DNA of 64,000 bases. It comes from Aureobasidium sp. EXF-3400. Taxonomy: Eukaryota; Ascomycota; Dothideomycetes; Dothideales; Saccotheciaceae. Both the position numbers and the translations under genes were made by a program. Shown here one piece after another: positions 2,795 to 46,237 of this stretch (the stretch's first letter is position 1; each line of letters starts with the position of its first letter). The notes under the pieces were generated by a model. That model was not told the DNA's origin. It saw only the letters and a list, made by a program, of their open reading frames with translations, and made no database searches. Where the stretch lies: contig SWBL01000089.1 in the NCBI GenBank assembly GCA_024195585.1, forward strand, positions 62,001 through 126,000. Reading direction: 5' to 3'.

Positions 2795-3708
2795 AGTGAG
2801 AGAGGTGTTGAGGTGTTATGGAGAGGGAAATGTTGTAGAGATGAGAAGGTGGGAACGACCATATAGGCTCAAATCGAAACTTCCTTGTAAGGACTCGAGC
2901 GACCATGACTCGGATGCACCTACCTATTTTTCCATCTTCGATTTATGTATGGATGGTATCTGTGCGTCGAGAGGTTGGGCTGCCTATATTGACCAAGTCC
3001 TTGAGCGGAACGAGGTACTGCCGTATAAATCGTCTTTAGGGCCTGGCCTATCTACCATCATAACTTCCTTCACGTATGCTAGAGCATGTGACTGGTAGCT
3101 AGAGCAATGCACAACACTGTCAGAAAACAGGACAGTGCCCACTGCGAAGCGGCAACTTGATCGACTCTCTATGGACAAACCTCTACCTCCGAAAACAGTT
3201 GTGCCTTTGTATAGTGACTCTTTGATCTTTGCTATAGCTGGGGTGCGATGGGCATACAGGCTTTAGCACACCTGGAGGTTGCAAAGTACAAAATCGTGGA
3301 CTCAGGGATTGTGATGCGATATCAGGCCATGTGCAGGGAAAATCAGGCGTGCTACGTTGGGAGAAAAGCATGGTTGTTGCTCCGAGGATCGGTGCAAAAG
3401 AGAAAGCCGGCAGCGGCTTCAGACGTCACTCAGTCGACAGAGAAATAATGACATGGAGAATTGTGGAAATGATAGTATTATAGCTCTTTGCGTGCTAAAT
3501 TTCCATCGTATGGAGTAGGGTTACCGGCAGCCCAAATGCTGGCGTACCTTTTTGTTACAGAGTCCTTTCCTTGCCGTATATTCTTCCCACAGTATTGTTA
3601 CATCTAGTAGAACAAAAAGACATGCTCTCCTGAGCTCCCCAGAGTTTACGCCAGATCTCCAATGCTTTTTAAACAACCCCTAGACAGCTACATTTTTGAC
3701 AAAATATT
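2795..3708. other. Intergenic spacer with a repeat copy
   Basis: About 0.9 kb between the SIMPL gene and the 3' end of rim2. It contains copy 3 of the dispersed repeat (3091-3285). The remaining open frames are short, lack family resemblance and start in no convincing context. The upstream part must hold the promoter of the SIMPL gene. Confidence 0.55.
3091..3285 (+). repeat. Dispersed repeat, copy 3
   Basis: This copy pairs with copy 1. Shared blocks include the GTAGCTA...ATGCACAA core, the CCACTG.GAAGCG block, a CT.TATGGACA block and a late GTTGTGCCTTT-like block, all in the same order and spacing. One frame of the core reads ARAMHNTVRKQ, compared with VAIEMHNTMRKR in copy 1. No intact gene is present. 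Confidence 0.6.
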
Positions 3709-4925
3709 CTACACGCCCGAGTCGGTTCCGAGGAAACGCAGGACCGCCTCGTACATGCCGAACATGATGGCGGCACTGGGTACAACTCTGAGCATATGCG
3801 GCACTAAGCCGCCGTATAGAGCAACCATACCCTCCTCCTTCCAGACCAGCTTGAAGCACTGGACCAAGCCAGTGTATTTGAGTTGGGGCACGCCATCGAT
3901 CGAGGTGGTGACAGGGGCTTGTCGCAAGCGTGTGCGGACGACCTCGTGAGGGTATGTAATGAGCGCGGCGACAAATTTGGCGCTACCTGCTGCACCGAGT
4001 CTGAGGGACCATGAGATGGCCTCATCCCAGGATGTACGAGGGCGGCCGGCGAGGGTAATGCGTTCTTCTCGTAGTGCGATGTAGCTCTTCATGCGTTCGT
4101 AGAGAACCCATTGTAGTGTGCTTTCTGTCACGCCCAAATAACTCGCGCTCAATCCTCTGTACAGTCCTCGGATACCTTCTGAGCGCACAGTCTGCATGGT
4201 ACAGTCCAGAGCGTTCTTGTATTTTCTTCCATCCAGACCACTGCCAGTCTTCTCAGCTCTTGATTTGTCCAGTTGCAGTCGCGTCTTCACGAGCCAGATG
4301 GGGTTCGTGGCAGTTCCAGTAAGCATACCAGCTCCAGCAGCAGCCAGCAAATGCACCCATGAAGCTTCCTTGCCATCATTGAAGTTTTGCGACAAGATTC
4401 TCTTTCCGTTTCCGTAGGCGAAGAAGTTGATGGCTCGTGCTGGCACGACACCAATGAGATTGGGACCAAGTCCTTTGAACAGAGCGCGGTAACCCTCAGT
4501 ACGAGGGATGGCGGTCAGAATCTGGAAGGTTTCTCGGATGTGGAGGATAGCAGTTCGGGAGTAGGAGAGTTGCGACAAGGGAGGAACACCTCGTGCGGCG
4601 CGAGCGGCGGAGAGTTGTGATTGGTAAAAGTCGGACTGTAGGCGAGTTTTTAGGACATCAAGAGGACAGGTCAGAGTAGCGGCCGTCATTCCACCTAGGC
4701 TGTGGCAATGTGATCAGCAAGATGAATTGAGCAAAGGTAGCGGACGTGAGCTCACCCTCCAGCGACGAAATGTGCCCATGACTTTGCGACAGGTGGCGGC
4801 GACCTTAGATTAGCTCCATCTTGTGTCTTTTGAGGGAATGCGTCTCCTGTTTCTCTGGATTGAGGTATGGGACTTGGGTCGATTACAGCGGCTCGCGCAG
4901 CGGCGATGGACGGGTTGGCTGTCAT
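3709..4925 (-). CDS. rim2: Mitochondrial pyrimidine nucleotide carrier Rim2-like
   Basis: Two exons (4925-4756 and 4699-3709) give 386 residues. The intron has a GTGAGC donor and CACAG acceptor, and joining restores the AGGLGGMTAATLTCPLDVLK signature. This is an SLC25 carrier with three repeats, whose signatures are PLDVLK, PIWLVK and PHEVVR. The tryptophan-containing second motif and the third motif followed by TRLRQ are features of the Rim2/SLC25A33-36 pyrimidine nucleotide branch. The family exchanges pyrimidine (deoxy)nucleotides across the inner membrane for mtDNA and RNA synthesis. The ATG at 4925 is preferred because MTANPSIAAARAAV fits family N-termini; an upstream in-frame ATG at 5072 would add 49 residues. 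The gene is divergent from cia30, another mitochondrial gene, with a 333-bp shared promoter region. Confidence 0.88.
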
Positions 4926-30768: not shown

Positions 30769-33246
30769 GCGGCAACGGTCAAAGTAGCGGCTCTGGATCC
30801 ACTACCAGCCTTCAAACTGTCGCATCAACGGCGCAGTTCTCTTGACGATCCTTACGACTCTCACGACCCATCGATATTGTCGCAAAGGCAGCAGCGACGA
30901 GCGCAAGACCAAAGTAGCTTCAGCACATCGTCCCGGACGTCTACATCCTCGGATCGTACTGGTCCAAGGCCACGCCGAGACCCACGAGCAAACGATTCAA
31001 ACGATCCTCAATCCCGTGCGAATAGGCGCAGCTCCCCTCCATTCAGAAGCGCGAACGCAAATCCTCACGAACCACGAAGCGCGCAACAACACTCGACTTC
31101 GACAGATCTTCAAGATCTCGAACCTCATCCAGCCCTTCGCATCTCCCGTCGTCAACACTTTGCGATTCTCTACGCAGTCGAAGAGGCTATCCGAACACCA
31201 TACCCCTTCACACCCGTTCTGGAAGAAGAGCAAGAGCAGATGTCAGATCTTATGGGCGACAGCACCCAGGGTGGCGGCCGGTCCGCGCCCTCAATACGCA
31301 CACCTCGCAACATAATGGCGGATCGTCTTGCTAGAGAGGCTAGAAGACACGCAGAAGCCACTCGTCAGAGAGAAGGCGAGCAGAGATCGTCAGACCCTGA
31401 TCGCAGAAGAGCCGCCGCCGCTGCTATGGAGTCCATGGCCGGACCCGATCCTGCGCAGTCATCGGCTCGCGCTTCCGAGGCTCCTCGAGGTGACGCTCCT
31501 TCCAGGCAACGATCTCAATCGCAGTCAGCACAACAAGGTCCCAAGGGCCAACCCACTTCTGAACACAGAAGAACTCAAACCACCTCACAGCCTGGACTAC
31601 GTGTGTCTTCAGCTCCTGACCCTCCTCAACCCACTCAGTCCCAAGATTTTGGATCAGAAGACGTACCTCAGTCAGGCACTCACTCATCATTTCCGCATGC
31701 ATTCGAAAGATGGGAAAACCTGTCGTCGCATTGGGAGGGACTCACATCGTATTGGCTTCGCAAGATCGAGGGCAACTTTGAGGAGATTCGCCATACCATC
31801 CCGTCTGCTGCTTCTATGCAACGACAAATTCAAGATCTCTCAGCTGCTGGCGCCAACCTTTTTCATGGATTGGTCGAGTTACAACGCCTTCGTGCCAGCT
31901 CTGAGCGCAAGTTTAAGAGATGGTTCTTCGAAATGAGGGCTGAGCAGGAGAAATGGCAAGAAGATCGTGCCGATTTGGTTGGCCAAATCAACGCCGAGCG
32001 CGATCTCAAAGAGCAAGCAGAACGCACGATCGAGAAGATGCGCAAAGAGGTTCTTTTCGAGAAGAACCGCGCCAATGAAGACCGCAGAGAATTGCTCATC
32101 GCCAAAGCCGAAGCCAGACGTGCTTGGGAGAGTCTTGGTGACATGGAAGCCAAGAACTCGGAGATCATGACCAACCTTCGTCAGGGCATCCCCACCAACA
32201 TTGGAGGTATTCAAGTCGTCCCTATGCACGCTACCAGTGCCCAGGAGACTGAGCGTCGTCCTACCACTGCCGCCACCACTGGCCAGAGCCCCCAGTACCA
32301 CCAGGTTAGATCGCAGCAGCCTCAACAGACACACCACGTTCAACAGCAGTACCAGCCTATTGTCCCGGATATTCAGTATCGGGATGATGAACCCTCTCCT
32401 ACCAACACTGATCCCTTCACCGAGTCTGCCAGAGCTGGTCAGCAACTCCACCACGAGCCTGATATGCAGCAGCTCGAGTCCGATGTGCGCCAGCCTTACC
32501 CTTCCGGTAGCACCTCCGCTTCAACTTCCACTGCTCGTACTGCCATCTCGCCTCATCAACAACGCCGTGACCTCTCTCCTCAAGAAATTTCACCTCTTTC
32601 TCCCAATGTCACTACCACCCGTCCTGTCATTCAGCCTAGCCAGGCCGCCACCTCAGGTCCCCTCAGTGACCAGCCTGAACTCTTTTACCAGCAGCCTCCT
32701 GGTAAGGTGTACCTCCACTCTTCCCCTGGAAGCGGTACTGCACGTTCCAAGACCCCGGTCGCTGAGGCAGTCCAAGGCACTCGCGATCTAGGCTCGCGTC
32801 CTTCGTACGAGTCTGACACCACCGAGGGCACCGAGTATGAGATTGACGAGCATGGTGCTGTCCGCCGTGACGCCCAGGGCCGCCCTGTAGTCTACCGCAA
32901 CCCCAACCGTGGCGCTGGTCAAACCACCAGCCACGTTTCTTCCGAAGAATACGACACTGCTGCTGACGTTGCCCGTGAGCGTGAGCTTGCCGCTCGCTAT
33001 GGTGTGGGCATGCCTCCTTCTCAGATTCCTCGCGCTCCCACTAGCAGTGCCGAGGCCATGGCATCTTTTGCCACTTCAACCGCCGACGACGTCGAATCTG
33101 CCGGCTACCGTGAAGCCGAGCCTGCCGACTACGAGGGTGCAGGTTTTGGCAGTGATTGGGAAGCTCTGCAGAGCAGACACCATCACCCTACCCGTCTTTC
33201 GGACGTTCTTGAAGAGGATGAACGCAGTCGCACCACTGCTGAATAG
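30769..33246 (+). CDS. Large coiled-coil protein of unknown function, 5' end unresolved
   Basis: The frame is open from 30769 to the TAG at 33244, but it has no suitable ATG near its start. A 5' exon or a broken start is therefore likely. The N-terminal part (RRSSLDDPYDSHDPSILSQR) is polar. A conserved-looking helical domain spans about 31695-32170, with WENLSSHWEGLTSYWLRKIE and LHGL/QRLRASSERKFKRWFFEM-type helices, then coiled coil. The C-terminal third is Gln/Ser/Pro-rich. After the TAG the same frame continues for 51 codons of acidic, coding-like sequence to a TGA at 33400 (see findings). The family resembles uncharacterised Pezizomycotina proteins; I recognise no enzyme domain. Confidence 0.6.
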   Translation, partial: AATVKVAALDPLPAFKLSHQRRSSLDDPYDSHDPSILSQRQQRRAQDQSSFSTSSRTSTSSDRTGPRPRRDPRANDSNDPQSRANRRSSPPFRSANANPHEPRSAQQHSTSTDLQDLEPHPALRISRRQHFAILYAVEEAIRTPYPFTPVLEEEQEQMSDLMGDSTQGGGRSAPSIRTPRNIMADRLAREARRHAEATRQREGEQRSSDPDRRRAAAAAMESMAGPDPAQSSARASEAPRGDAPSRQRSQSQSAQQGPKGQPTSEHRRTQTTSQPGLRVSSAPDPPQPTQSQDFGSEDVPQSGTHSSFPHAFERWENLSSHWEGLTSYWLRKIEGNFEEIRHTIPSAASMQRQIQDLSAAGANLFHGLVELQRLRASSERKFKRWFFEMRAEQEKWQEDRADLVGQINAERDLKEQAERTIEKMRKEVLFEKNRANEDRRELLIAKAEARRAWESLGDMEAKNSEIMTNLRQGIPTNIGGIQVVPMHATSAQETERRPTTAATTGQSPQYHQVRSQQPQQTHHVQQQYQPIVPDIQYRDDEPSPTNTDPFTESARAGQQLHHEPDMQQLESDVRQPYPSGSTSASTSTARTAISPHQQRRDLSPQEISPLSPNVTTTRPVIQPSQAATSGPLSDQPELFYQQPPGKVYLHSSPGSGTARSKTPVAEAVQGTRDLGSRPSYESDTTEGTEYEIDEHGAVRRDAQGRPVVYRNPNRGAGQTTSHVSSEEYDTAADVARERELAARYGVGMPPSQIPRAPTSSAEAMASFATSTADDVESAGYREAEPADYEGAGFGSDWEALQSRHHHPTRLSDVLEEDERSRTTAE

Positions 33247-33402
33247 GACAAGCATGCGGACGATACTGACAGCGTCAATCTGGACGGTGTTACCCTCAAC
33301 AACCCCATCGCCTCGAAGAACAATGATGCTGACGACGACGACGAAAGTAGCGATGAAGAAGAGATCATCTTCCGTCCTCGCTCGAGCGACAAGCTTAGTT
33401 GA
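33247..33402 (+). other. In-frame coding-like extension after a TAG stop
   Basis: Directly after the TAG at 33244 the frame continues for 51 codons without stop. It includes an acidic run (DADDDDESSDEEE) followed by IIFRPRSSDKLS and TGA. Composition matches the upstream protein's tail. It is either a readthrough extension or the true C-terminus cut off by a nonsense change. Confidence 0.5.
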
Positions 33403-34445
33403 GTAACGCCGATAACCGCACTCAATCACGACACGATGATTTCCTTGTCTCTTTCTCGTGTGATGGAACCGAGATAGGAACGTGACCTCCGTTACTCTTT
33501 CATCCTTCTTCGCCATCACACTTTTCACTTGTTCACTGGTTTCTCTTTTCCTTTCTTTCCTTGCATCTTCTCAACACGCATGCCGTTCTTCAGCAAAGCG
33601 CGGCGCCAATGGAGAGCTCTAGGTGGTGGTAATGACACTTTGCATACTCGGGATGGTAGTTTCTTCACGACTTCGGATGGGGTGTGGGAAAAGGAGGAGC
33701 GCAACAACGACATCACGCAACGCAAAAAAACGCACACACATATGGGCTCTGGTTTTCCTCCTCTGCACGTTTTCCTTAATTTTTCCCTTCTTCGTGTTTC
33801 TCTTTTCTTTTTATTCTCTTCTGGCTGAGGTGGTCTCTCCTAAAGGGTGCTACTGATGACTTGCCCTTTTATTTATCATTCTGGCTGAGGTGTTTTACTC
33901 ATCAAGAGTGATACTGACGACTTGCCCTTTTTTCTTTCTTCTTTTCTTGCTTTTCAATTCCCCACTCTTCTTTTCGCTCCGGATACTTCTTGCAGACTCG
34001 ATTCTATCCTTTTTAATGGGCTCTTCTTCTTTCTGTAGCGAATACTTGCTCTTCTTCAGCTTCTATACCCAAATGCTTTACTTCTTTGCTTCGCTATTCG
34101 AAGACTTTGTATTCTAATTGTTCTCTGAAAAGTTGTTTGTGACTGTCTTTGGTGCCTCTTCCTGATTCTCGCTAGCCTTACTCTGTGTCCTCCTGGTTGG
34201 CTGTTGTGGTTTTCGGTTGTGTATGTGCTAGTACGGTCGAAAAGACTGAGAAACGCTGTCTGTTTGTAATTCTGGTCGGGAGGATCTCAAATCAAAGTCG
34301 AAGCGTCTCGTGCATATTGTGCTGTACATCTAACGTATCTAATCAAGAATCATACAAAACAAGCTTTCCAAAGCTGTCTCAAAAAGCGTATCTCATTATA
34401 TCATAACTCAAAAGAACCAAAAACATGTCTTTCTATCCAAAACTC
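33403..34445. other. T/C-rich spacer with a 60-bp tandem repeat
   Basis: About 1 kb between converging genes. The plus strand is strongly pyrimidine-rich. Apart from the tandem repeat at 33821-33940 I see no feature; the open frames are short and dominated by Phe/Leu/Ser from the base composition. Confidence 0.5.
33821..33940 (+). repeat. Imperfect 60-bp tandem duplication
   Basis: Two units of exactly 60 bp (33821-33880 and 33881-33940). Both begin with CTGGCTGAGGTG and share ACTGA(T/C)GACTTGCCCTTTT. The first unit has matching AAAGGG and CCCTTT arms that could pair; the second has lost the pairing. It lies in the likely 3' UTR of the coiled-coil gene. Confidence 0.75.
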
Positions 34446-36352
34446 TTACACAGTGTAGACGAACTCTGGGTTCTCGCGATCGGTAAGATCTAGCCATTCT
34501 TGGTTTTCCAACTTGACGTATGAGGGAGAAGCGCGAATGGCTGCTCTTTTCTTGTTTTGTTGCTTGCAGTACCAGTAGATGAAGAGGACATCGAGGATGC
34601 TGAGGGCCCAGCATACAATCTGTGCACACCAGAGTCAGTGGATCTGCAATACAGAAGATACGAAATGTGAGAGGGTTTCTTACGATGACGATCTCGGCAG
34701 GAACGTATCTGGGAGCATCTTTTGGACGGAAGGTTTGAGGGCCGATGATGTTGCCTGCGCAGTAGCCGATCAAATACAAGGCAGCTACGGTTGTCTTCTT
34801 TGTCCATCCAGCTACGTTGGTCGAGATCAGACTGAGGAGAGCGACGAAGCATGTTGGTGAGGCTTGGGTGAGGTAGTAGCCAAACAGACGTCCGATGTTG
34901 TTGTGAAGCGGCAGGCAGACGATCAAGAGCATGCCCAGGATGGAGATCCAGAGGCCGGAAGTCGCGATCAAGAGGCGGTTGCCGAATTTGTCGCCTAGGT
35001 ATCCACAAACGAGGAGAGCGATCACCTCGACTGCGCCACCTGGAGTACCGTAGAGGAGAGATTCCTCTGCAGTGTAGCCAAAGGATGTGATCAGTTGAGA
35101 GAAGAAGTTGGAAATGCCGCCTGAATTCTTGGTTAGTAATCATGTATTTCCCGAGTCTTTATCACAATGCATACCGTTGGGAATATCAGCAACCAAAGCA
35201 TAGAAGAAGAATGCCCATGTAAGAGGATCCAACAGTGCCTCTTTAAGCTGGTACATCTTGAAATGCTTGTTTCCGATACCTTGCTGGTTGCATCTGACAC
35301 GCTCGACGGCAAGAAGGCGATCTTCTTTGCTAAGGAAACGTGCGTTAAGTTGACTGTCAGGAATGATCCAGAGGAAGACAAAGCCGACGCAGATGGTCAA
35401 GCATCCGGTGACCAGAAAGATGATCTTCCAGGGTTCAATGGCGGACCCGTGCAAACGTGTTCCTTTTGCGATTCCATATGCTACCAGACCGCCGAAGATT
35501 TGTGCAAAGCCGTTGAAAGAGAACCAGATACTTGTGCGGGAACCTTGCTCTTTCTTGGTATACCACTAGTGATAGTCAGTATCTTGTGTAGGGTGGTTGA
35601 AATGAGATTGTGGCATACCTGAGATGTTAACAAGGCAAAGCCAGGTGTGACAGCAGCTTCAGTGACTGGAGAGACGATCAGCTTTGTTGGCATGGTCATT
35701 TCGAGACTCCGGTCGCATACCTCCAAGCATAAAACGCACAGCGACTCCGCCTGAAAAGTTTTTGACGGCGGCAAATGTACTCAAAGTCATGCCCCAGAGA
35801 ATGATGTTGCAAGCCGAGTATTTTCCCAATGGTAGTCGTTGCAGTAATCTGTTTGTCGGGTACTCCCAGGCAAGGTATCCAAAGTAAAACCTGATGCATA
35901 TTAGTCTTTGTGCCCGTTACCGACAATGTGGCTCATCTCTTACATCGAACTCAGCCATTGGTAGTCAAGTCCTTCGAGGTGCGTGTCTTTCTTTATTCCC
36001 ATGACGGAGGCGTAGGACAGCGTTGTCTTGTCCAGATAGTTCAATCCATAGACGATGCACATAACCTGCAAGAGAGCGTAAAATCAGTACGTGTTGCTCA
36101 TGTCTCCAGAATATTCATGCGTACTGGCATCAGGTTCCAGTCAATCTTCCGTAATAGGCGCTTGTTGGTGGCTTCGTCCAGTTAAATGACCTCTCCCGGA
36201 TGTGACATGAAGGCCTTCAAGGCCTCATCTGCATCTCCAGCATGTTGTAGGATAGTTTTGTCCACACTGCCATTACGTATAGCATCTGCGAGAGGTGCAG
36301 GAAGTTCCTTCTCAGCATCGAAGGGGATTGCTGACTTCTCAGTATCAGACAT
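34446..36352 (-). pseudogene. Dal5-like MFS anion:cation symporter with an in-frame stop
   Basis: Seven exons (36352-36125, 36065-35944, 35890-35721, 35665-35619, 35565-35175, 35120-34684, 34619-34446) join in frame to 523 codons. The product has 12 membrane segments of the allantoate/nicotinate/biotin permease branch: GLNYLDKTTLSYASVMGIKK in helix 1, WYTKKEQGSRTSIWFSFNG, and a hydrophilic tail. Codon 57 (36184-36182) is TAA between GEVI and LDEATNKRLLRKIDWNLMP, a motif normally continuous in this family. There is no Met before helix 1 apart from the one in NLMP, and no plausible intron removes the stop. Everything downstream is intact, so the lesion is recent, or the stop is read through. 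Confidence 0.82.
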
Positions 36353-36972
36353 ATTGACGGAACGAAAGTCGACACAAGAACAATGGACAAGAATAGGAAA
36401 GGCCTCGAAGAGGCGGATACATGGCGAAAGTTATAAAGAATTGGAGAAGGTTCCACTGATAAAGTACATAGATACCGGCGAGCAGGGCGGAATATCATAA
36501 CCCCTTGGAGTTACCTTATGCTACCTTGCCGTTAGATAGGCACGGCGGAGGAGCCAATCGAGCCTGACAGATCTGCATGGTGCGCGTGGAGAAGGACACG
36601 CGATGGAACGTCTCGCGGCCAAGCTTATACCATGTTGGGAAGGAGCCACGCCGACCTCTTGCCCGTTGCTTGGCAGGCCGCGGGGCTCTCCTGCCTTTGT
36701 TCGAAACGACCCCAACTTTGTTGACAACACAATCACTCCATCTCCATAACCATCATCATCCATCATCCAAGAAGATTATCGTTAGTGAGTGGACAGAAGC
36801 TACGTTGTTCGAAAGGTACGACGATCGCTGACTTTTGATCAGAAGCACCATTTCTTGCAGAGCATCGCTCGAACGTCTCAGAGTCATCCATCCATCAACC
36901 CATCGATACCATCCATTCGACCATCGACATTATTGCTTTCCACCTCCTTCGATTCTCGACGCAAAGCTAGAC
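36353..36972. other. Spacer between the MFS and single-pass membrane genes
   Basis: A bidirectional promoter region. The plus strand near 36,740-36,930 is rich in CATC repeats (CCATCATCATCC-type). No gene is recognised. Confidence 0.5.
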
Positions 36973-37866
36973 ATGTTTCTGACACTCTACTTTGCCGTCC
37001 TTCTGGGCACTCTTCTGCAAATCGTAGCCAGCAGTCCGGCTCAACTCTCATCCAACCACAGCCTTCGACGTGACGATATCGACCCTGACTGGCCATACTC
37101 TCTTGTCAAGTCTGGCAAAGACTTCGGCGTCTCACAGGCACTCTCATGGCCCGATTAGCACACGGTCAGCTTGATGCTCGCTCCCTACGCCAACGTCGAA
37201 GCATTCATGAAAGAATGGAGATCCCGTGCTCCTCCCACTCATCGCGGTTTCGGCAATCAGTCTTCGGCCGCTATCACTTCCAACAATCAATCTTCAGCCC
37301 TACTCGCCATCAACAGGAATCCCCAAGAGTCCTATACTATGACTCTTCTTGATGATAGTGACTACGGTGGCGCAACCAATGCAGGCAAGGTTTTTGGAAT
37401 CGTTTTCGGAACTTTCGGTGGTATTGTCCTGATCTGGGGAATCCTTGGAACATGGCTCCTGATCCGCTACCGCCGGAAGATGCGACGCCAAGCTAGCGAA
37501 GAGACAGCTAGCGAAGAGACAGCAAGAGATGTGACAGCAAGAGATGTGATAGCAAGAGATGTGACAGCAAGAGATGTGACAGGAGAGCATGTGGATGAGG
37601 CGCACATTTCGCCAGATTCTACCTATGGATCTCTATCAGCTTCATCTTCTCCACCAGCTTCATCGTCTCCGGATGCGCCTGTGCAGCAACCAGAAACCCA
37701 GGTCAGACGCGCAAACTCGCCTGGCGCAATCGATGGCCCTACTTCTACACCTTCGTCTCCACCGCCCTCTGGTGCAGTAGTAGAGAACTGGGTCGAGAGT
37801 GTGCTTCTACCACGTCAACCTGGTGGCATTTTGGCTGTACGTTCACCTCCCACGAATATGAGGTGA
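36973..37866 (+). pseudogene. Single-pass membrane protein gene interrupted by TAG
   Basis: One frame runs from ATG 36973 to 37866 except for a TAG at 37156 (codon 62). The first part has a signal peptide (MFLTLYFAVLLGTLLQIVAS) and a short polar region. After the stop the frame continues through LMLAPYANVEAFMKEWRSRA and a membrane helix (VFGIVFGTFGGIVLIWGILG followed by TWLLIRYRRK). It then enters a cytosolic tail with five-residue repeats (ARDVT) and a Ser/Pro-rich end. Signal peptide and helix are both needed for a type I membrane protein, so the two halves belong together. The fold and length recall fungal wall-sensor-like or skeletal membrane proteins, with no specific family identified. 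Translation may also begin at the ATG at 37174 to give a shorter form without signal peptide. Confidence 0.65.
37497..37588 (+). repeat. In-frame 15-bp minisatellite
   Basis: Four to five copies of a 15-bp unit close to GCAAGAGATGTGACA encode ARDVT, ARDVI, ARDVT, ARDVT. A 15-bp GCTAGCGAAGAGACA pair (ASEET) comes just before. The length being a multiple of three keeps frame and makes copy-number change harmless to the frame. Confidence 0.85.
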
Positions 37867-38266
37867 GGACTAGGATGTGACGGCACAGCGAGATAATCAC
37901 ACTGGTGGTCTTGCAGGTTTGCATCAAGGAAACAACCCTACTTACCCCGGATGAGAATGACCACAGAGGCCCTACCTACTACTGCTTGTAACTTAGAAAG
38001 AGGCAGATGTCTGTACACAACAATTCTCGAAGATGGGTTTGTCAACATGTGATACTGTAGAGGGGAGAGCAACCCTGACTTGACGTGTACCCCGCCATGG
38101 CCACGTCACAAACGTCTTGCTTACAAACACCCGAGTGACCTCAATCTTTCGGTGTTTCGGTTCAGACAAGCAATTCGATTCTCTTCTCATGTTCCAGCTA
38201 TTCAAAACAAGAACGCTATCACTTGCTCCAAACTTCAATTCTAATCACCTCCGGACAATCGCCAGA
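37867..38266. other. Spacer before the CinA-domain gene
   Basis: It holds the promoter of the CinA-domain gene. An in-frame extension with a basic, presequence-like stretch begins at about 38117 but has a TTG codon there. An in-frame ATG at 38189 (MFQLFKTRTLSLA) could give a mitochondrial form. Confidence 0.45.
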
Positions 38267-38809
38267 ATGAGTTCCTCTTCTTCAGACGCTTCAGCCCACT
38301 TTCCCCCACCTGCACTGCGCAACACCTTGAATGAAGTGACCTCACTCCTCCATTCTCGCAACCAGACCATCGCTATTGCCGAGACTGCAGCTGGAGGTCT
38401 CCTTTCCTCATCCATCCTTTCCACTCCAGGTGCATCCAAGATCTACAAGGGTGGCTTGACACTCTACACCCTACCATCCAGAATCGCCTATGCAGGATGG
38501 AATGACGAAAACATCAAAGGCTACAAAGGACCTACTCCGGAAATCGTTGCTGGACTGGCCAAGCATGTGAGAGGAGAGCTGAAGGCTGATTATGTGATTG
38601 CCGAGTCGGGCACTGCTGGGCCTACTGGTGGTGACACTAGAAACAGGACGCCTGGATATGTTGCGCTTGCTGTGGATTGTGAGAAGGGCACATTCACTAG
38701 AGAAGTGGAGACGGGATTGGGAGGTGATAGAGTGGCGAACATGGTGCAGTTTGCTGAGGAAGGATTGAAATTGGTCAAGGATGTCATTAATGGGGATGCT
38801 AAGCTCTGA
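38267..38809 (+). CDS. CinA C-terminal domain protein (NMN amidohydrolase-like)
   Basis: A single exon of 180 residues from ATG 38267. The body is a CinA_C domain. IAIAETAAGGLLSSSILSTP is the family's A-E-S/T-x-T/A-x-G-G active-site loop (here AETAAGG), followed by KIYKGGLTLYTLPSR. The YVIAESGTAGPTGGDTRNRTPG loop is also typical. Bacterial relatives (PncC) deamidate nicotinamide mononucleotide. In fungi the domain stands alone and the function has been little studied. The usual catalytic Ser of the S-x-T/A loop is Thr here (AETAAGG), as in several eukaryotic copies. Confidence 0.82.
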   Translation: MSSSSSDASAHFPPPALRNTLNEVTSLLHSRNQTIAIAETAAGGLLSSSILSTPGASKIYKGGLTLYTLPSRIAYAGWNDENIKGYKGPTPEIVAGLAKHVRGELKADYVIAESGTAGPTGGDTRNRTPGYVALAVDCEKGTFTREVETGLGGDRVANMVQFAEEGLKLVKDVINGDAKL

Positions 38810-38862
38810 AAACCTAGCAGTGTGCCTTTGAAGCTGGCATGTTGCTTGTAGGTGGCGGTATG

Positions 38863-39927
38863 TTACTCGTCGTCATCATCCTCCTGCTTCTTCTGGCCTG
38901 AGAGCTCGAGGTACTGCTCCATCAAATCCTCAACCATGTCTTCCACAGGCTTGAGCTCAATATCAAAGATCCTTTCTGTCTTCTCCTTGCTGCAAACCAC
39001 GCTCTTTGTAGGAATGTCTGATGTGCAAGGCAACAAGCCTTGGGCAACTTGCTCAGGGAACAGATCCTTTGTGATTTCGTTCACATCATTCCACTGCACT
39101 TCCTGTCCAAACAGATACTCTCCAGCAGGGATTCTGTCCTTGTTGAGTGCAGCAATGTGGATAGCAGCCACATCCTCAATATGCACCACTGAAGCGATTT
39201 CAGCAGGAGAGTCCTTTGGCGCAACTCCCAATGCCATTCTCAAGAATAGGACATTAGATGTGCTCATCAGATCGGCAGGTGAAGTAGCCAACTCGTTGCG
39301 TCCTTGCACATATGTAGGGCACACATTGACGATATCGAAGTTTGGCTTGTGTTGCGCCATCCACTGCTTCGCCTTCAAAAACGAAGAAGTCTTTGACGCA
39401 ACATACGAGACCAAGACATTCGCATACGGAGGCGCAATCTCGGCATTGATGTTCTCCTCAGTAAGAACCACAGGTCTGTCCACAGGTCCCACCAACAATT
39501 CTGGAGTAATGAAAATGGCGCAGGAAGAAGTCATCACTACTCTCTTTACAGAGTTTGACTTGTGCGCTGACTGCAAGGCGGAAATGGTGTTGATGACTGC
39601 TGGCTCGACCATTTGTTTGTACTGCTCTGAAGGGCTGAGAGAGAGGTTTGTGAAGGGCAGAGGCGAGGCGGAATGGATCATGTAGTCGGCTCCTGCTGTT
39701 GCTTCATCCAGAGCACCTTCGACGCTGAGGTCCGGCACAATGTAAAAGCTGCATCGTGGTGGTCCTCTGGTGAGAGACTTGAAGCATGGATTGTTGCGCA
39801 GGATATCGGCTTTGGCGGCGCTGCGCACGACAATGCGGATATTGTAATCATATTGCAAGGCCTCTTGGAGAATAGCAAAACCACAGAAGCCAGTGGCGCC
39901 CGTAAGTACAAGAGTTTCCGAAGACAT
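38863..39927 (-). CDS. Extended SDR (dihydroflavonol reductase/Gre2-like) oxidoreductase
   Basis: A single exon of 354 residues. The N-terminus LVLTGATGFCGFAILQEALQ holds the TGxxGxxG NAD(P)-binding motif. The active-site Tyr-x3-Lys is in LVSYVASKTSSFLK and the catalytic Ser in VVMTSSCAIF. The C-terminal third forms the substrate-binding part and ends in an acidic tail (QEDDDDE). Relatives reduce ketones and aldehydes with NADPH (Gre2, cinnamoyl-CoA and dihydroflavonol reductases). The substrate cannot be told. It is convergent with the CinA-domain gene at only 53 bp. Confidence 0.85.
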   Translation of the reverse strand: MSSETLVLTGATGFCGFAILQEALQYDYNIRIVVRSAAKADILRNNPCFKSLTRGPPRCSFYIVPDLSVEGALDEATAGADYMIHSASPLPFTNLSLSPSEQYKQMVEPAVINTISALQSAHKSNSVKRVVMTSSCAIFITPELLVGPVDRPVVLTEENINAEIAPPYANVLVSYVASKTSSFLKAKQWMAQHKPNFDIVNVCPTYVQGRNELATSPADLMSTSNVLFLRMALGVAPKDSPAEIASVVHIEDVAAIHIAALNKDRIPAGEYLFGQEVQWNDVNEITKDLFPEQVAQGLLPCTSDIPTKSVVCSKEKTERIFDIELKPVEDMVEDLMEQYLELSGQKKQEDDDDE

Positions 39928-40384
39928 GGTTGAGAAAGAACGTGGATGCAGAAAAGTACGAGGTCGAAGACAGAAAAAAAAGGTTGGAGGAAACGAGACT
40001 TGACTTTATGGTTCGTGCGAACTTTTGCAAACTGTGGGTTTCCTTCCTCTACGAACAATCTATTAGGCCTCACACCGTCCTTTTTGGTATTGCGAGTATA
40101 TGAGGAGGTGAAACTTGTGGGATCTTCAAGCCCGGCAGGCAATCTGGAACGAATCGGTGCAATCCTTCGTATTGGTTGAGTCGCATGGGATAAACCAGAG
40201 ATCGTCAAGGGTTCAAGGCGGACCGCTCCAGAAAGTCGGGCGCCAAGCCAACCCAGCCGTGTGCTTCTGACTCGAAATTCGGTCTTAGAGAACAAACATA
40301 ACAACTGAGTACCGATTGTGGTGAGGATAGAAGACGATGTTTGTCAATGGAAGGAATTTTGAACTTGTTGAGTGGTCTATACTT
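39928..40384. other. Spacer upstream of the extended SDR gene
   Basis: It holds the SDR promoter and the 3' region of the carnitine carrier gene. No gene or repeat is seen. Confidence 0.5.
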
Positions 40385-41517
40385 CTAGTCAAACATCTTG
40401 GTCATGGCCTTTTGGGCCAACTCGACTCCGAGGAAAGTGGCAGCGTTGGCGGGGACAGCACGAGCCATTGCGGGACCAATACCAGGGAAGAATGCCTTGT
40501 AACCTCCTCTTCTGTAAAGCTCCTTGATTGTGCCTCCGATGGTAGGGTTGCCTTCTGCTGATTGCAGGCGACTCTTGACGGTGTCGACGGGGAAAACGGG
40601 GATCCACATGGCAATACCGGCGGCACCACCAGCAGCCATGACGGCAAGAAGACTGAGCTCGCCGGGTGTGCCGTCTGCGTTCTTGGGTGTGAGTTGGCGC
40701 TTGACGGTTTCGTAGGCTGCAAAGTATGCTGCTGATCCAGGTGCGTCTCTAGCGAGGGTCATGGCGCTGCCTCTGAAGACGGATCTGACACCACCTTCCT
40801 TGTAGAGTTGACGCACGACATCGATACCTCCTGAGTACTTGGGCTTCTCGCCAGGAGCCAATGTCTTCTGACCCTGGATCTGCAGCAAGACCTTGACACG
40901 CTCAAAGGGAGCAGCAACGGCGGTAGTGGGAACGGCAGAGAAAGCGCCAGCAGCACATATCTGGCCGGTAGTGAATTGATCGTTGTGTACTGTGCTGAAA
41001 GACTTGACGAGTTTCTTGCCCAAGTCGTAGCCCTGTCTTGCGTCAGTCGCTGTGAGGCCTCGTTCTTATGAATGATTGAATCATACCCAGAAGCTGACGG
41101 CGACTGCGAGATAGAGTCAGTAACTGCATCTTTCGGAATTGATAAAGCTAGACTTACACATTGGTGTTACACCAACCAGAGGTGCAGAAACACCGGCATA
41201 CAGACCCTAGAGCATTGTGAGCAATTGGCGCGGGCGTGACGCGGCAAAGAGATGCATACCCTCACGAGACCTTCCTTCGCAACTGTCTTTCTCACGACAT
41301 CCATTGCACCGCTGTAGACACCGGCTTGAGCGGTCTGCAAGCGCACCTTGACCAAGTCAAAGGGGTGTCCAACAACGACAGCGCATACACCACCAGCACC
41401 TCCTGACACTAGCGACCGCAAACTGGCGAAGGTCTCTTTTGTTGCGACAACAGCATCCTGCTTCAGCTCTTCCGCCGACGGCAGGTCGTGGACACTGGGT
41501 ACACTTGATTTGGACAT
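40385..41517 (-). CDS. crc1: Mitochondrial carnitine/acylcarnitine carrier
   Basis: Four exons (41517-41260, 41206-41158, 41103-41087, 41032-40385) encode 323 residues. The third exon is only 17 nt. The joins create LVRGLYAGVSAPLVGVTPMF and AVSFWGYDLGKKLV, both diagnostic of the carnitine carrier branch. The three signature motifs are PFDLVK, PFERVK (followed by VLLQIQ) and PVDTVK. The protein exchanges acylcarnitine for carnitine across the inner membrane and feeds mitochondrial beta-oxidation and acetyl unit import from peroxisomes. Start at MSKSSVPSVHDLPSAEEL; no presequence is needed. Confidence 0.92.
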
Positions 41518-41999
41518 GGTATGATGCACGAACGGATGTGGAGAAGCTGTGGAGGTAACAGCTAAGGATGGGACTCGGTTTTGAGGGTCTGGTCTGCGAC
41601 AGAGGAAGGAACAAAGGGAAGAGAAGATCAAACAAGAAAGAAGAAACTTGAAGGCTAGTAGCCAAAGGACTGCGCCGATAATGTTGGGCGGCTTCTCTAC
41701 ATGTGATGCAACATTTCTCAAGGTTTCCCGAGGGGACCGACAATAAATCCGGGGGGCCGAGGCTGATCACAGAAAGCCGGCCGAATGGACGCCGAGCCGG
41801 AGCAAACACCAGGCAGCTCCTTCCTTACACGCAGCAACGGAATTTGATGCTGATAATCCGAGAGCCGTTGGTCACAATATGTTCTGTTCGTCTTCTGGAA
41901 GCAAGTCACGAGCCATGGGTGAATACATGTCAAGGACGTTCAAAATTCTAATTTTGGTTCGTTATGTCTATCTTGGGTTTTTTCTAATCGGCCAACCAT
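41518..41999. other. Spacer between crc1 and prx1
   Basis: Contains the crc1 promoter and the 3' end of prx1. I see nothing else. Confidence 0.5.
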
Positions 42000-42875
42000 C
42001 TACTTGATCTCAGCATAGCGGAGGTAAGGCTTGAGTTCGCGGACATTGTTGAACTTCTTCTTTGCGTCCTCGGTCGACACCGAAGGAGGCACAATGACAT
42101 CCTCACCAACCTGCCAGTTAATTGGTGTAGCAATGCCCTTCTTGTCGGCAGTCTGGAGCGAGTCGATAACTCTGAGAACCTCGGCGCTGTTTCTGCCAGT
42201 GCTGGCAGGGTACATCATTGTTAGACGGACCTTCTTCTGGGGGTCGATGACAAAGACGGAGCGGATTGTGAAGGCAATGCTCTTCTTGGCTGCGTCGTCC
42301 AGATCCTCCTGGTTGATCATGTCGTACAAGAAGGCGACTTTGCGGTCGTGGTCGGCGATGATGGGGAACTGAAGGTTGGTGTTTGCAATCTCGTTGATGT
42401 CCTTGATCCAACCCTCGTGCGATCCGAGGTCGTTGGCGCTCTGTGATACCCTGTCAGCTCTGATTCATGCAATTCAAGAACTTCAGTTGCATACCAGGCC
42501 AATCATCTTAACACCACGAGCATCGAACTCGTTCTTCAACTTGGCAAAAGCACCAAGCTCAGTAGTGCAGACGGGCGTGTAGTCAGCGGGATGAGAGAAC
42601 AGGATTGCCCAGCTGTCGCCGATCCACTCGTGGAAGGACTTGATCTCGCCCTGAGATAGTCAGCATCTTCCTGGGCCATAAGCATCCGACGAACATACCT
42701 CAGTAGTCTTTGCGCTGAAGTCAGGGGCAACAGAACCAAGACGAATGCGAGGCTGCTCCTGAGTTGTGGCAAGACCGCGGTACATGAAAGGTGCAGCTCT
42801 GGCACGAGCAGCCAAAGGCTGGCATGCTGATGCACGAGACAGAGCTCTGGGGGCTGATCTGAAGAATGAAGCCAT
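42000..42875 (-). CDS. prx1: Mitochondrial 1-Cys peroxiredoxin (Prx1/Prx6 type)
   Basis: Three exons (42875-42699, 42650-42495, 42440-42000) encode 257 residues, with all junctions in phase 0. The first about 35 residues are Arg/Ala/Ser-rich without acids ([20 protein letters not shown]), a mitochondrial presequence. The peroxidatic Cys is about residue 87 in [15 protein letters not shown]; there is no resolving Cys in a VCP motif, as expected for the 1-Cys group. [20 protein letters not shown] and the C-terminal dimerisation domain ([20 protein letters not shown]) are typical of Prx6. The enzyme reduces hydrogen and lipid peroxides in mitochondria, probably recycled by glutathione/thioredoxin. 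Confidence 0.93.
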
Positions 42876-43373
42876 TGTGTATATTTTTTATGAGTTGGTT
42901 ATACTGGAGCCGCCTGGAGCTCGAGTTCGATATTACAAAACTTCATCGACGTTTACGTCATGCGCTTCCCCGATCTCGGCTTGAGCTCTCCAGCTCGAGG
43001 CTTCTCCAGAGATCTTTCTTCTTGTACAACAAGAACAACCACTTTCTTTCTCAAGACCTATGCAGTCGAAGTCGTATACGGCTTTCTGACGCAGCCATGA
43101 ACCTCTGTGTGCGGCGGACTTGCGCAATAAGACCTGACTATACAGGTGAAGCGGAAAGCAATGCACCCGCTATCGCGGAAAGTCTCCGCATTATCAAGGT
43201 GGGACGGTGGAGAGGTTGTAAACAGAAGTAGCTACCCCGCGGCAGTTCTTAATAGAGTCCTCGGCCAAGTATACTTTCTAGGCCTATCTCATTCTTCCTT
43301 TCTTAGTTTCAATTTGCATGTCTTTGTTCTCTAGTCCAGGTCAATCCGCTAAGAATCTGTTTCTCTCGTCATA
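42876..43373. other. Divergent promoter between prx1 and an SDR gene
   Basis: A 498-bp spacer. No further gene is visible. Confidence 0.45.
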
Positions 43374-44243
43374 ATGGCTGCACAGAAAGTTGCTCTGATC
43401 ACAGCTGGAACAGCGGGCTTAGGTGCTGCCATTGCCCGTGTCCTAGCACCAGACTTTCGAGTGGTACGTTGGATCAGAACTCGTAACAGTCCACCCGTCC
43501 CTGATTTTCTCACAGGTAATCAACTATGCAAACAACAGCTCTCGTGCCGAGGACGTCCTCAAAGAACTCAACGGCATCCCTAGCACCGTGTCTTCCCAAG
43601 TATCTCCTCGTTTCCACGCCATAAAAGCAGACATTGGCAGCCGCGACGCCATAAACTCCCTCGTCCAAGAAACAATCACCACAATGGGCCGCTTAGATGT
43701 CGTAGTCTCCAACGCTGGCTACACACGTCTGACAAACTTCATGAACTTTGACGAACAGCATTTCGACGAGGACTGGGACAAATGCTTCCTCTACAATGTG
43801 AAAGCACACATGTGGCTTGCCTACGCAACACGTGAACACCTCGAGAAGACTGAAGGTGCCTTCATCACTACATCGAGTATTGCTGGTGTGAAGCCTTCAG
43901 GCAGTTCGTTGCCGTATGCTGTTACCAAGGCAGCGAGTATACACTTGTCAAAGTGTTTGGCGAACATCTGTGCTCCGAAGATCAGATTCAACAGTGTCAG
44001 TCCTGGGTTGATGCTGACGGAGTGGGGCATGAAGTTCTCGGAGCAGAAGAGAGAGGCACACAAGAACAACACCAAGTTGAAGAGACTGCCGGAAGTTGAT
44101 GTAAGTTGAACTGAGATATCGAGCCGAAAAGTGCTGGTTGCTGACAATCATTCTAGGATGTCGCGGATCAAGTACGAGTACTCGCTTTGTCGAGAAGCAT
44201 GACAGGACAGAACGTTATCATCGACTGTGGTTTGACATGTTAA
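43374..44243 (+). CDS. Classical short-chain dehydrogenase/reductase
   Basis: Three exons (43374-43463, 43516-44100, 44157-44243) encode 253 residues, all introns in phase 0. The cofactor motif is TAGTAGLGAAIA (TGxxxGxG with Ala variants), followed after the first intron by VINYANNSSRAED, whose Asn/Ser/Arg suggest NADP preference. The NAG motif is VVSNAGYT, the catalytic Ser is in TTSSIAGVK and Tyr-x3-Lys is YAVTK. The C-terminal NVIIDCGLTC replaces the common xxVDGG end. The substrate is unknown. It is convergent with the NCS1 permease, about 100 bp apart. Confidence 0.87.
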
Positions 44244-44344
44244 GTGCGGTCCTCAAGCTTTGGATGGAATCGTATGGTCAACCCGCGTCAAGGTCTCTAT
44301 TCCTGTAAACCCTCTATCTATATGGCGTCTAGTCGATCTTAAAA

Positions 44345-46237
44345 TTACAAGACTTTGCCGAGATCTGCAGCATTGACATTTACACCTTTCATCTCAAAGG
44401 CGTCTTTGCTTTCGCCCTCGACATCTCTGTCCGAACTCATATCCTCGCCCTCCAAGATCTCTAGAGAGTAGATCGATCTCGGTATCAATGACTCCTTCGC
44501 GGGGAACAACTTACTCAACACTGTATAGACAAAGATACTCGATACGAAGCCATACAGCCAATCGAAGGAGTACAAATGTTTGGCTCCCGCAGAGATAGAG
44601 CTGGTGTTGATCGAATTTGCAAGACCCGGAAGATTGGGACAGACGGCGATGAGGAATGCGACCAGACCTTGCCAATTGACGCCGTAGATATATCTGTATC
44701 GTCCGTGTGGGTCGTAGAGAGCAGGCACGTCGATGTGACGACGCTTGACTAGCCAGTAGTCGGCTGCTAGGATGCCTGAAAAGGTGTCAGTAGAGGTTCC
44801 TCAATGCTCAATGAATTGCAGCACTTACCAGCCATAGGAGCAAGAAAGACCGAATACCCAGACATGAATGCGAGAAATGTTTGCGCATTCTTCAGAATCT
44901 TCCACGGCACCATGACCCAACAAGATACAACAGCAGCGATGAAACACCCACGTCTGATGTTGATGTACTTGGGTGCCATGACACACAGGTCGTTAGCGGC
45001 AGAGATGGAATTGCCAGTGATGTTCGTTCCCACTTGGGCGATGAACCAACTCAATGAAGCAAAGAATGCTGCAGCCCTTCCAGCATGTCCGTTCTTAAGC
45101 CATTGCTCTACGATGTTCAAAGGGTTCCAGTAAAACTCGCCGTAGACCACTTTGGATGCTGAGGTTGTGACGACACCAAGAACACCACACAAAGTAAATA
45201 GAATAGGTAAGGCGGGCAACTGGACATATTGTGCATAGTTTGGTTTGCCATCCGGACGGGCTTTGGCGTAACGTGAGAAGTCGGCTACGTTTACAGCGAG
45301 AGTCGCCCAGACTCCTGTCACAGAAGACATGCAGCTCAGCCAGAGGTAAGCCTTAGCTTCTCCTGTCACTGTTCCTGGTTGTGAGAAGATGGCACCACCG
45401 CCACCGGCTTTGTGTACCATGTATCCAAGAGTTGCGATGGCTGTGACGGGAGCTGCGATCATTTTGACCATGAACAGGTAGCGTAATTGGGTAGGTGGGA
45501 TCATGAGCATAGGAAGTTGGATGATCCAGAAGAGGAAGTAAGCTATCATGCCGGCTGTGCTGATGCCGCCACTCTCAGGAAGCTACTCGAAAGTCAGTAA
45601 AGGGGAGTTTTAAGAAACCAGAGATAGAGCATCGGCCTACTGTATTGTTCCGCCCATTCCAGTCGTATGAAGCGAATGATGGCCAGATTGCCATAATCAT
45701 GATCTGCATGGCGAGCGCACCATTCGCGCTCTGTATCCCCAGCCAAAACATGGCCAAGATACATCTTGATGCGATGCAGAAGTAGGCAAAGTAGTAACCG
45801 AACCCTGAACGAACGATGACACTGAATGGAACATGAAGTTGGGCACCCATGGCTCCGTTGAGGACGACTGGTACGGCAACACAAAAGCATCCGACAACCA
45901 TGATAGGGATAGCATCACGCCAAGTTAGGCCGACTTGGATGATTGAACTGGCTGTCTCCCAAGTACCCAAGTTAATAACATCGGTTGCCCAACTTTTTCC
46001 AGCATTAGCCATTGCACTTGCCAGACCTTGTCACTTCGCTTACTATGCTATCCAGGTCCACATGCCCCAAGTCTGCTCTGAGACGGGCACGGGGTCCATA
46101 TCTTTGTTTGTCCAGACATGTTCGGGTGCAATTGTCGATTCTTGTTTCGGTAGAGCCCAGGCTTCGAGGGTTGTGAATCTTCTTCGAATTGTCTCCTTAG
46201 AGGGAAGAACAGCTTCTGGTGAGAAGTTCATGACCAT
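44345..46237 (-). CDS. NCS1-family nucleobase/allantoin permease (Fur-like)
   Basis: Four exons (46237-46044, 45992-45641, 45582-44829, 44775-44345) encode 576 residues. The first intron (GTAAGC...AAAAAG) restores TWGMWTWIAYWATDVINLGT, the diagnostic NCS1 helix 1. Further signatures are AMFWLGIQSANGALAMQIMI, NVADFSRYAKARPDGKPNYA and FIAQVGTNITGNSISAANDL, the last matching the Fur-type helix 8. About twelve membrane segments precede an acidic cytosolic tail with EILEGEDMSSD, resembling the endocytosis signals of fungal Fur transporters. It imports uracil, allantoin, uridine or a related compound with protons; which one is not visible. Confidence 0.9.

Follow-up and report, generated by a model that had tools for sequence, protein, structure and literature searches.

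Fungal adenosine-to-inosine (A-to-I) RNA editing has been described in Sordariomycetes and in one Pezizomycete, and was not found in one Eurotiomycete and one Leotiomycete; the same source leaves the other classes open (PMC11156358). The editing favours U at position -1 and hairpin loops, and yields premature-stop-correction and stop-loss classes (PMC11156358). In Fusarium AMD1, 97.6% of perithecial transcripts are edited at a UAG that a predicted intron had concealed (PMC5496914). Fungal readthrough by the ribosome has been demonstrated for UGA followed by CU and is lower with UAG or UAA (PMC4207609). Here, we analysed a 64,000-nucleotide stretch of the Aureobasidium sp. EXF-3400 genome (contig SWBL01000089.1, C89:62001-126000; hereafter the window), in which three adjacent genes contain an in-frame stop codon: a gene for a coiled-coil protein (gene 1), one for a transporter of the major facilitator superfamily (MFS) and one for a single-pass membrane protein (gene 3). 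The stops lie where an original prediction from the sequence had placed them (TAG 33244-33246, plus strand; TAA 36184-36182, minus strand; TAG 37156-37158, plus strand). The frame continues behind each, and both flanks are coding-like as claimed, judging by codon usage at the TAGs and by homology at the TAA. We lean slightly towards reading them as three separate things with no common cause: a lesion or assembly error in the MFS gene, the terminator of gene 1 and the end of a probable intron in gene 3.

The assembly comprises 53,448,430 bases in 717 contigs. At 53.4 Mb it is about twice the haploid genome of A. melanogenum (about 25 Mb) and falls among the sizes, above 46 Mb, of strains that have been termed diploid (PMC9535773); TN3-1 has a comparable doubled genome of 51.6 Mb (PMC11449735). 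Because of this size, and with two divergent copies present, the genome is most likely that of a hybrid diploid. The nearest named relatives are from A. melanogenum, with 98% identity to P0001 over the MFS piece and 99% to P0137 over the coiled-coil piece. The homeologous contig C59 is collinear with window positions 1-36562 in 12 blocks of 66-85% identity; the six blocks longer than 2 kb show 72-80%, most of the large ones 77-80%. The fetched part of C309 aligns to window positions 38112-46225 in two blocks of 78-80% identity. Collinearity is broken at 36562-38112, with C59 as the homeolog on the left and C309 on the right.

The MFS gene and its stop were placed as follows.

34446..36352, minus strand: MFS gene of the allantoate-permease kind; seven-exon model ending in TAA 34448-34446, with MFS_1 found in the closest relative, P0001
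36124-36066, 35943-35891, 35720-35666, 35618-35566, 35174-35121 and 34683-34620, minus strand: introns of the MFS model
36182..36184 (36184-36182), minus strand: TAA within the MFS frame (codon 57), either an assembly error or a private nonsense codon

Comparison with relatives indicates that this TAA is the only lesion among the three stops. When the best 120 of at least 1802 relatives were aligned, its column, a variable one, held a sense residue in 118 and a gap in 2. Apart from this codon the gene is intact, and the C59 copy has stop-free exons, its stops being confined to introns. In a two-way comparison of window positions 1-36600 with C59, the TAA was the sole stop at which all 15 residues to either side were identical; the runner-up, at 4415, had 14 and 15 of 15, and an opposite-strand frame of 335 codons runs there. 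A UAA that undergoes one A-to-I edit is still a stop (PMC11156358), tryptophan occupies the column in none of the 120 relatives, and the codon, with a predicted hairpin-loop probability of 0.04, lies outside a loop. An intron covering the TAA was considered and discarded: five frame-keeping GT-AG pairs were found within exon 1, every one of them ending in AAG.

These observations suggest that this genome copy carries a single nonsense codon, probably a recent one. Unless the codon is an assembly error, the MFS protein would end after 56 residues, ahead of the portion aligned to the transporter domain, and the intact C59 homeolog would compensate for the loss, such masking being expected for a stable hybrid diploid. 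Alternatively, the TAA may be an assembly error in an intact gene, to which we give somewhat less than an even chance. The stop is single and isolated, and where the 120-relative alignment is conserved to 95% or more the predicted protein has no change of its own, although this is a weak test because seven intact relatives gave 0 or 1 in the same test. Nothing direct counts against an error, but diploid redundancy makes a genuine null allele equally easy, since a divergent second copy of the kind carried by A. melanogenum-type hybrid diploids allows a null allele in one copy to persist.

For gene 1, the features that bear on the stop are these.

30877..33246, plus strand: gene 1, a coiled-coil protein with an uncertain start; open frame ending in TAG, with relatives up to 99% identical
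33244..33246, plus strand: TAG, read as the ordinary terminator of gene 1; common to homeolog C59 and a broken copy on C155
33247..33402, plus strand: tail of 51 further codons in frame, closed by TGA, with coding-like codon usage and a ratio of non-synonymous to synonymous rates (dN/dS) of about 1 versus C59
33227..33264, plus strand: predicted hairpin whose loop (33241-33250) contains the UAG, predicted in C59 and C155 too

Judged by its relatives, the TAG at 33244 is the old, ordinary end of the coiled-coil protein, and the frame before it encodes a complete protein. We read it so because relatives end near the motif TRLSDV and because the same TAG is present in the C59 homeolog and in the broken C155 copy. 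Among the best 120 of at least 1695 relatives, TRLSDV lies near the C-terminus in all 120, the protein ends no more than 25 residues beyond it in 116, and the exact ending ERSRTTx[E/D] occurs in 23. No Pfam domain was found in gene 1, and one scan each of a genome-contig and a viral-contig collection returned no relatives. Four models run on past the stop: in P0139, P0140 and P0151 the tail has the same ending as in the window (IFRPRSSD), and P0177 has a different tail; the introns that these models require appear to lack their GT and AG at the corresponding places of the window.

What weighs against an ordinary terminator, and is not explained by a plain untranslated tail, is that the frame behind the TAG (51 codons open in the window, 45 in C59) is coding-like in both copies, which differ by gaps of 3, 6 and 6 bases, partly in a GAC repeat. 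Its codon-usage score was 0.363 and 0.421 in frame in the two copies and at most -0.009 in the other frames; none of 2000 simple and none of 1000 dinucleotide shuffles reached it, and the stretches behind other stops, taken as controls, scored below zero in 8 of 8 cases. Protein-level selection on the tail as a whole was not seen against C59, where 6.5 synonymous and 25.5 non-synonymous differences gave a dN/dS of 1.00 over 45 codons, compared with 0.119 over 639 codons of the gene-1 body, and frame 0 was without advantage over the other two frames. By part, dN/dS was 1.97 in the first 15 codons and 0.27 in the last 15, and only the latter look constrained. The open frame may be, at most, a minor and fast-changing extension.

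Such a minor extended form could arise if ribosomes read through the gene-1 TAG, and perhaps that of gene 3 too, an idea consistent with the open, coding-like tail that both homeologs have and with the same kind of tail in three public gene models. The stop context is UAG-G in the window and UAG-U in C59, however, and not the leaky UGA-CU; the sequence that follows the stop has no stable fold, with z values of 0.76 and 1.21, and the tail dN/dS of 1.0 also argues against readthrough. We regard readthrough as highly improbable.

Beside the gene-1 stop (33210-33290) synonymous divergence is low, 0.158 in the last 11 codons versus 0.833 in the body, which is compatible with a conserved RNA feature. 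The C155 sequence (L010, C155:4000-12000, around 3570-3890) is a third, broken copy of the gene-1 C-terminus, with stops present and the tail absent. P0139 (A. pullulans QM012_000363) is a public model in which an amino-acid transporter domain (PF01490) is joined, probably mistakenly, to gene 1; QM012_000361, near it by number, is related to gene 3, a hint that A. pullulans has these genes in the same order.

Downstream lie gene 3 and the third stop.

36973..37866, plus strand: gene 3, a single-pass membrane protein with homologs found from Aureobasidium only
37105..37158, plus strand: 54-nt stretch, candidate in-frame intron GTCAAG...GATTAG, left out by P0124 and P0128; coding-like codon usage
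37147..37168, plus strand: predicted hairpin in gene 3 whose loop (37152-37163) contains the UAG
37156..37158, plus strand: TAG of gene 3, probably common to the genus

The gene models of relatives suggest that the gene-3 TAG is common to the genus. Sixteen homologs were found, and all 11 of those that carry names are from Aureobasidium. P0124 and P0128 join PYSL straight to HTVSL, an omission of exactly 37105-37158, while P0134 joins PYS to HTVSL and so omits one residue more. The models that open at MLAPY, 11 of the 16, start directly past the TAG and also suggest a shared stop. The candidate intron has GT-AG ends, keeps the frame and stands at exactly the same place in two relatives' models. 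The TAG at 37156 would most simply be its 3' end and an old feature of a genus-specific gene.

Several points weigh against such an intron. The sharing of the stop is itself read from gene models, and because a predicted intron hid the edited UAG of AMD1, predicted introns over a TAG are no proof of splicing. The donor is GTCAAG, whereas all six MFS introns start with GTA, and no CTRAY branch site lies within 37105-37158, which holds only CTCAC and CTCAT. In addition, the 51 nt ahead of the TAG are coding-like by codon usage: they score above 79% of 3000 coding samples, and 0.2% of 1939 open non-coding 51-mers reach their score (shuffle p 0.005 and 0.016). Donor scoring with an intron set from the homeolog comparison was tried and abandoned, the set being too noisy.

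It is also conceivable, if unlikely, that gene 3 is not one protein and that the signal-peptide frame and the frame beginning at MLAPY are separate products or reflect a stable truncation. Eleven of the 16 homolog models start at MLAPY, just past the stop, and two more, P0131 and P0136, have another first exon. Against this, the first 44 residues of gene 3 are only 2 differences away from P0124 and are joined to the remainder in three models. A genome search found gene 3 in full only once, and the stretch that carries it has no match on C59 or on the fetched part of C309. At 37491-37582 the gene contains 15-nt tandem repeats whose copy number varies among relatives.

Frame ends were then surveyed in all six frames of 172,001 bases (window, 64,000; C59, 80,000; C309, 20,000; C155, 8,001). 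The 50 coding-like frame ends comprised 19 TGA, 16 TAG and 15 TAA, similar numbers that bear out the earlier view of codon reassignment as unlikely. For the TAGs, coding-like flanks are more than coincidence: a coding-like continuation of at least 40 codons followed 4 of the 50, the stops of gene 1, of its homeolog and of gene 3, together with a TGA behind which the stretch reads like an intron. The survey is mildly circular in that long frames of the surveyed sequences, gene 1 included, served to train the codon table. The MFS stop was ineligible because its exon ends too soon. Over ±30 nt, the predicted loop probability of the stop's A was 0.98 for gene 1, 1.0 for its C59 copy, 0.96 for C155 and 0.93 for gene 3, for which a separate prediction gave 0.86; among 302 control TAGs the values of 0.98, 1.0 and 0.93 were reached by 11% (gene 1), 6% (C59) and 17% (gene 3), and by 4-9% at ±40 nt. 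In the window no RNA family reached its gathering score and no tRNA was found (ARAGORN, bacterial setting).

At both TAGs, A-to-I editing in these predicted hairpin loops could, in principle, turn UAG into UGG, the MFS TAA being a separate lesion. In gene 3 this would be a premature-stop correction, with the edit required for the full membrane protein; in gene 1 it would be a stop-loss adding a short acidic C-terminal tail. Consistent with this, both stops are UAGs in predicted loops (for ±30 nt, 0.98 in gene 1 and 0.93 in gene 3), TAG stops with coding-like sequence on both sides are rare in the 172 kb, and the loop preference, the recoding classes and the concealed AMD1 stop described above offer precedents. 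The loop values are non-significant when taken site by site, however, and the dN/dS of the gene-1 tail speaks against editing. A limited literature search found no report of A-to-I editing for Dothideomycetes or Aureobasidium, and A. melanogenum is reported to be clonal, while most known editing is linked to sexual structures (PMC11156358). We consider editing improbable. If it were true, UAG editing in Aureobasidium would be the first Dothideomycetes case found in that search, and an edit at either UAG would add to the fungi with stop-codon editing a class for which its occurrence is undecided (PMC11156358).

Returning to three separate causes, the original prediction had taken each stop to interrupt a gene. 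This holds for the MFS gene, not for 33244, where a complete protein precedes the stop, nor for 37156, where the stop is probably shared with relatives. Relatives have sense residues at the MFS site, share the gene-1 stop and, according to their gene models, probably share the gene-3 stop as well. Recent decay or sequencing error likewise fits the MFS gene and not the two TAGs. We reject decay of the whole block, repeat-induced point mutation (RIP) and codon reassignment because relatives share two of the stops, demonstrably in gene 1 and probably in gene 3, and because all three stop codons are normally used. As to RIP, moreover, neither TAG is a mutation, the commonest relative residue at the MFS codon cannot be converted to TAA by C-to-T changes, and the MFS piece has no near-identical second copy in the genome, only the 76% homeolog. 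Programmed recoding, also proposed earlier, gains some circumstantial support at the two TAGs from codon usage and hairpin loops, with the MFS TAA set apart. The analysis thus parts one MFS lesion, real or an error, from two stops that mimic lesions to readers and introns to gene predictors.

The two TAGs resemble Fusarium AMD1 and fungal stop-loss editing sites (PMC5496914, PMC11156358) in having a UAG in a predicted loop, coding-like sequence after it and an annotated intron over the stop. They differ in belonging to the class Dothideomycetes and in a gene-1 tail that evolves like non-coding DNA. As in the fungal peroxisomal readthrough of metabolic enzymes (PMC4207609), gene 1 has an open in-frame extension past a conserved stop, but that stop is UAG and not UGA-CU, and by inspection the tail ends in KLS, with no SKL-type signal. 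The genome itself is like those of the stable hybrid diploids of A. melanogenum (PMC9535773, PMC8401163), with about twice the haploid size and two divergent collinear copies, although the 77-80% identity in most large blocks here is apparently wide even for those.

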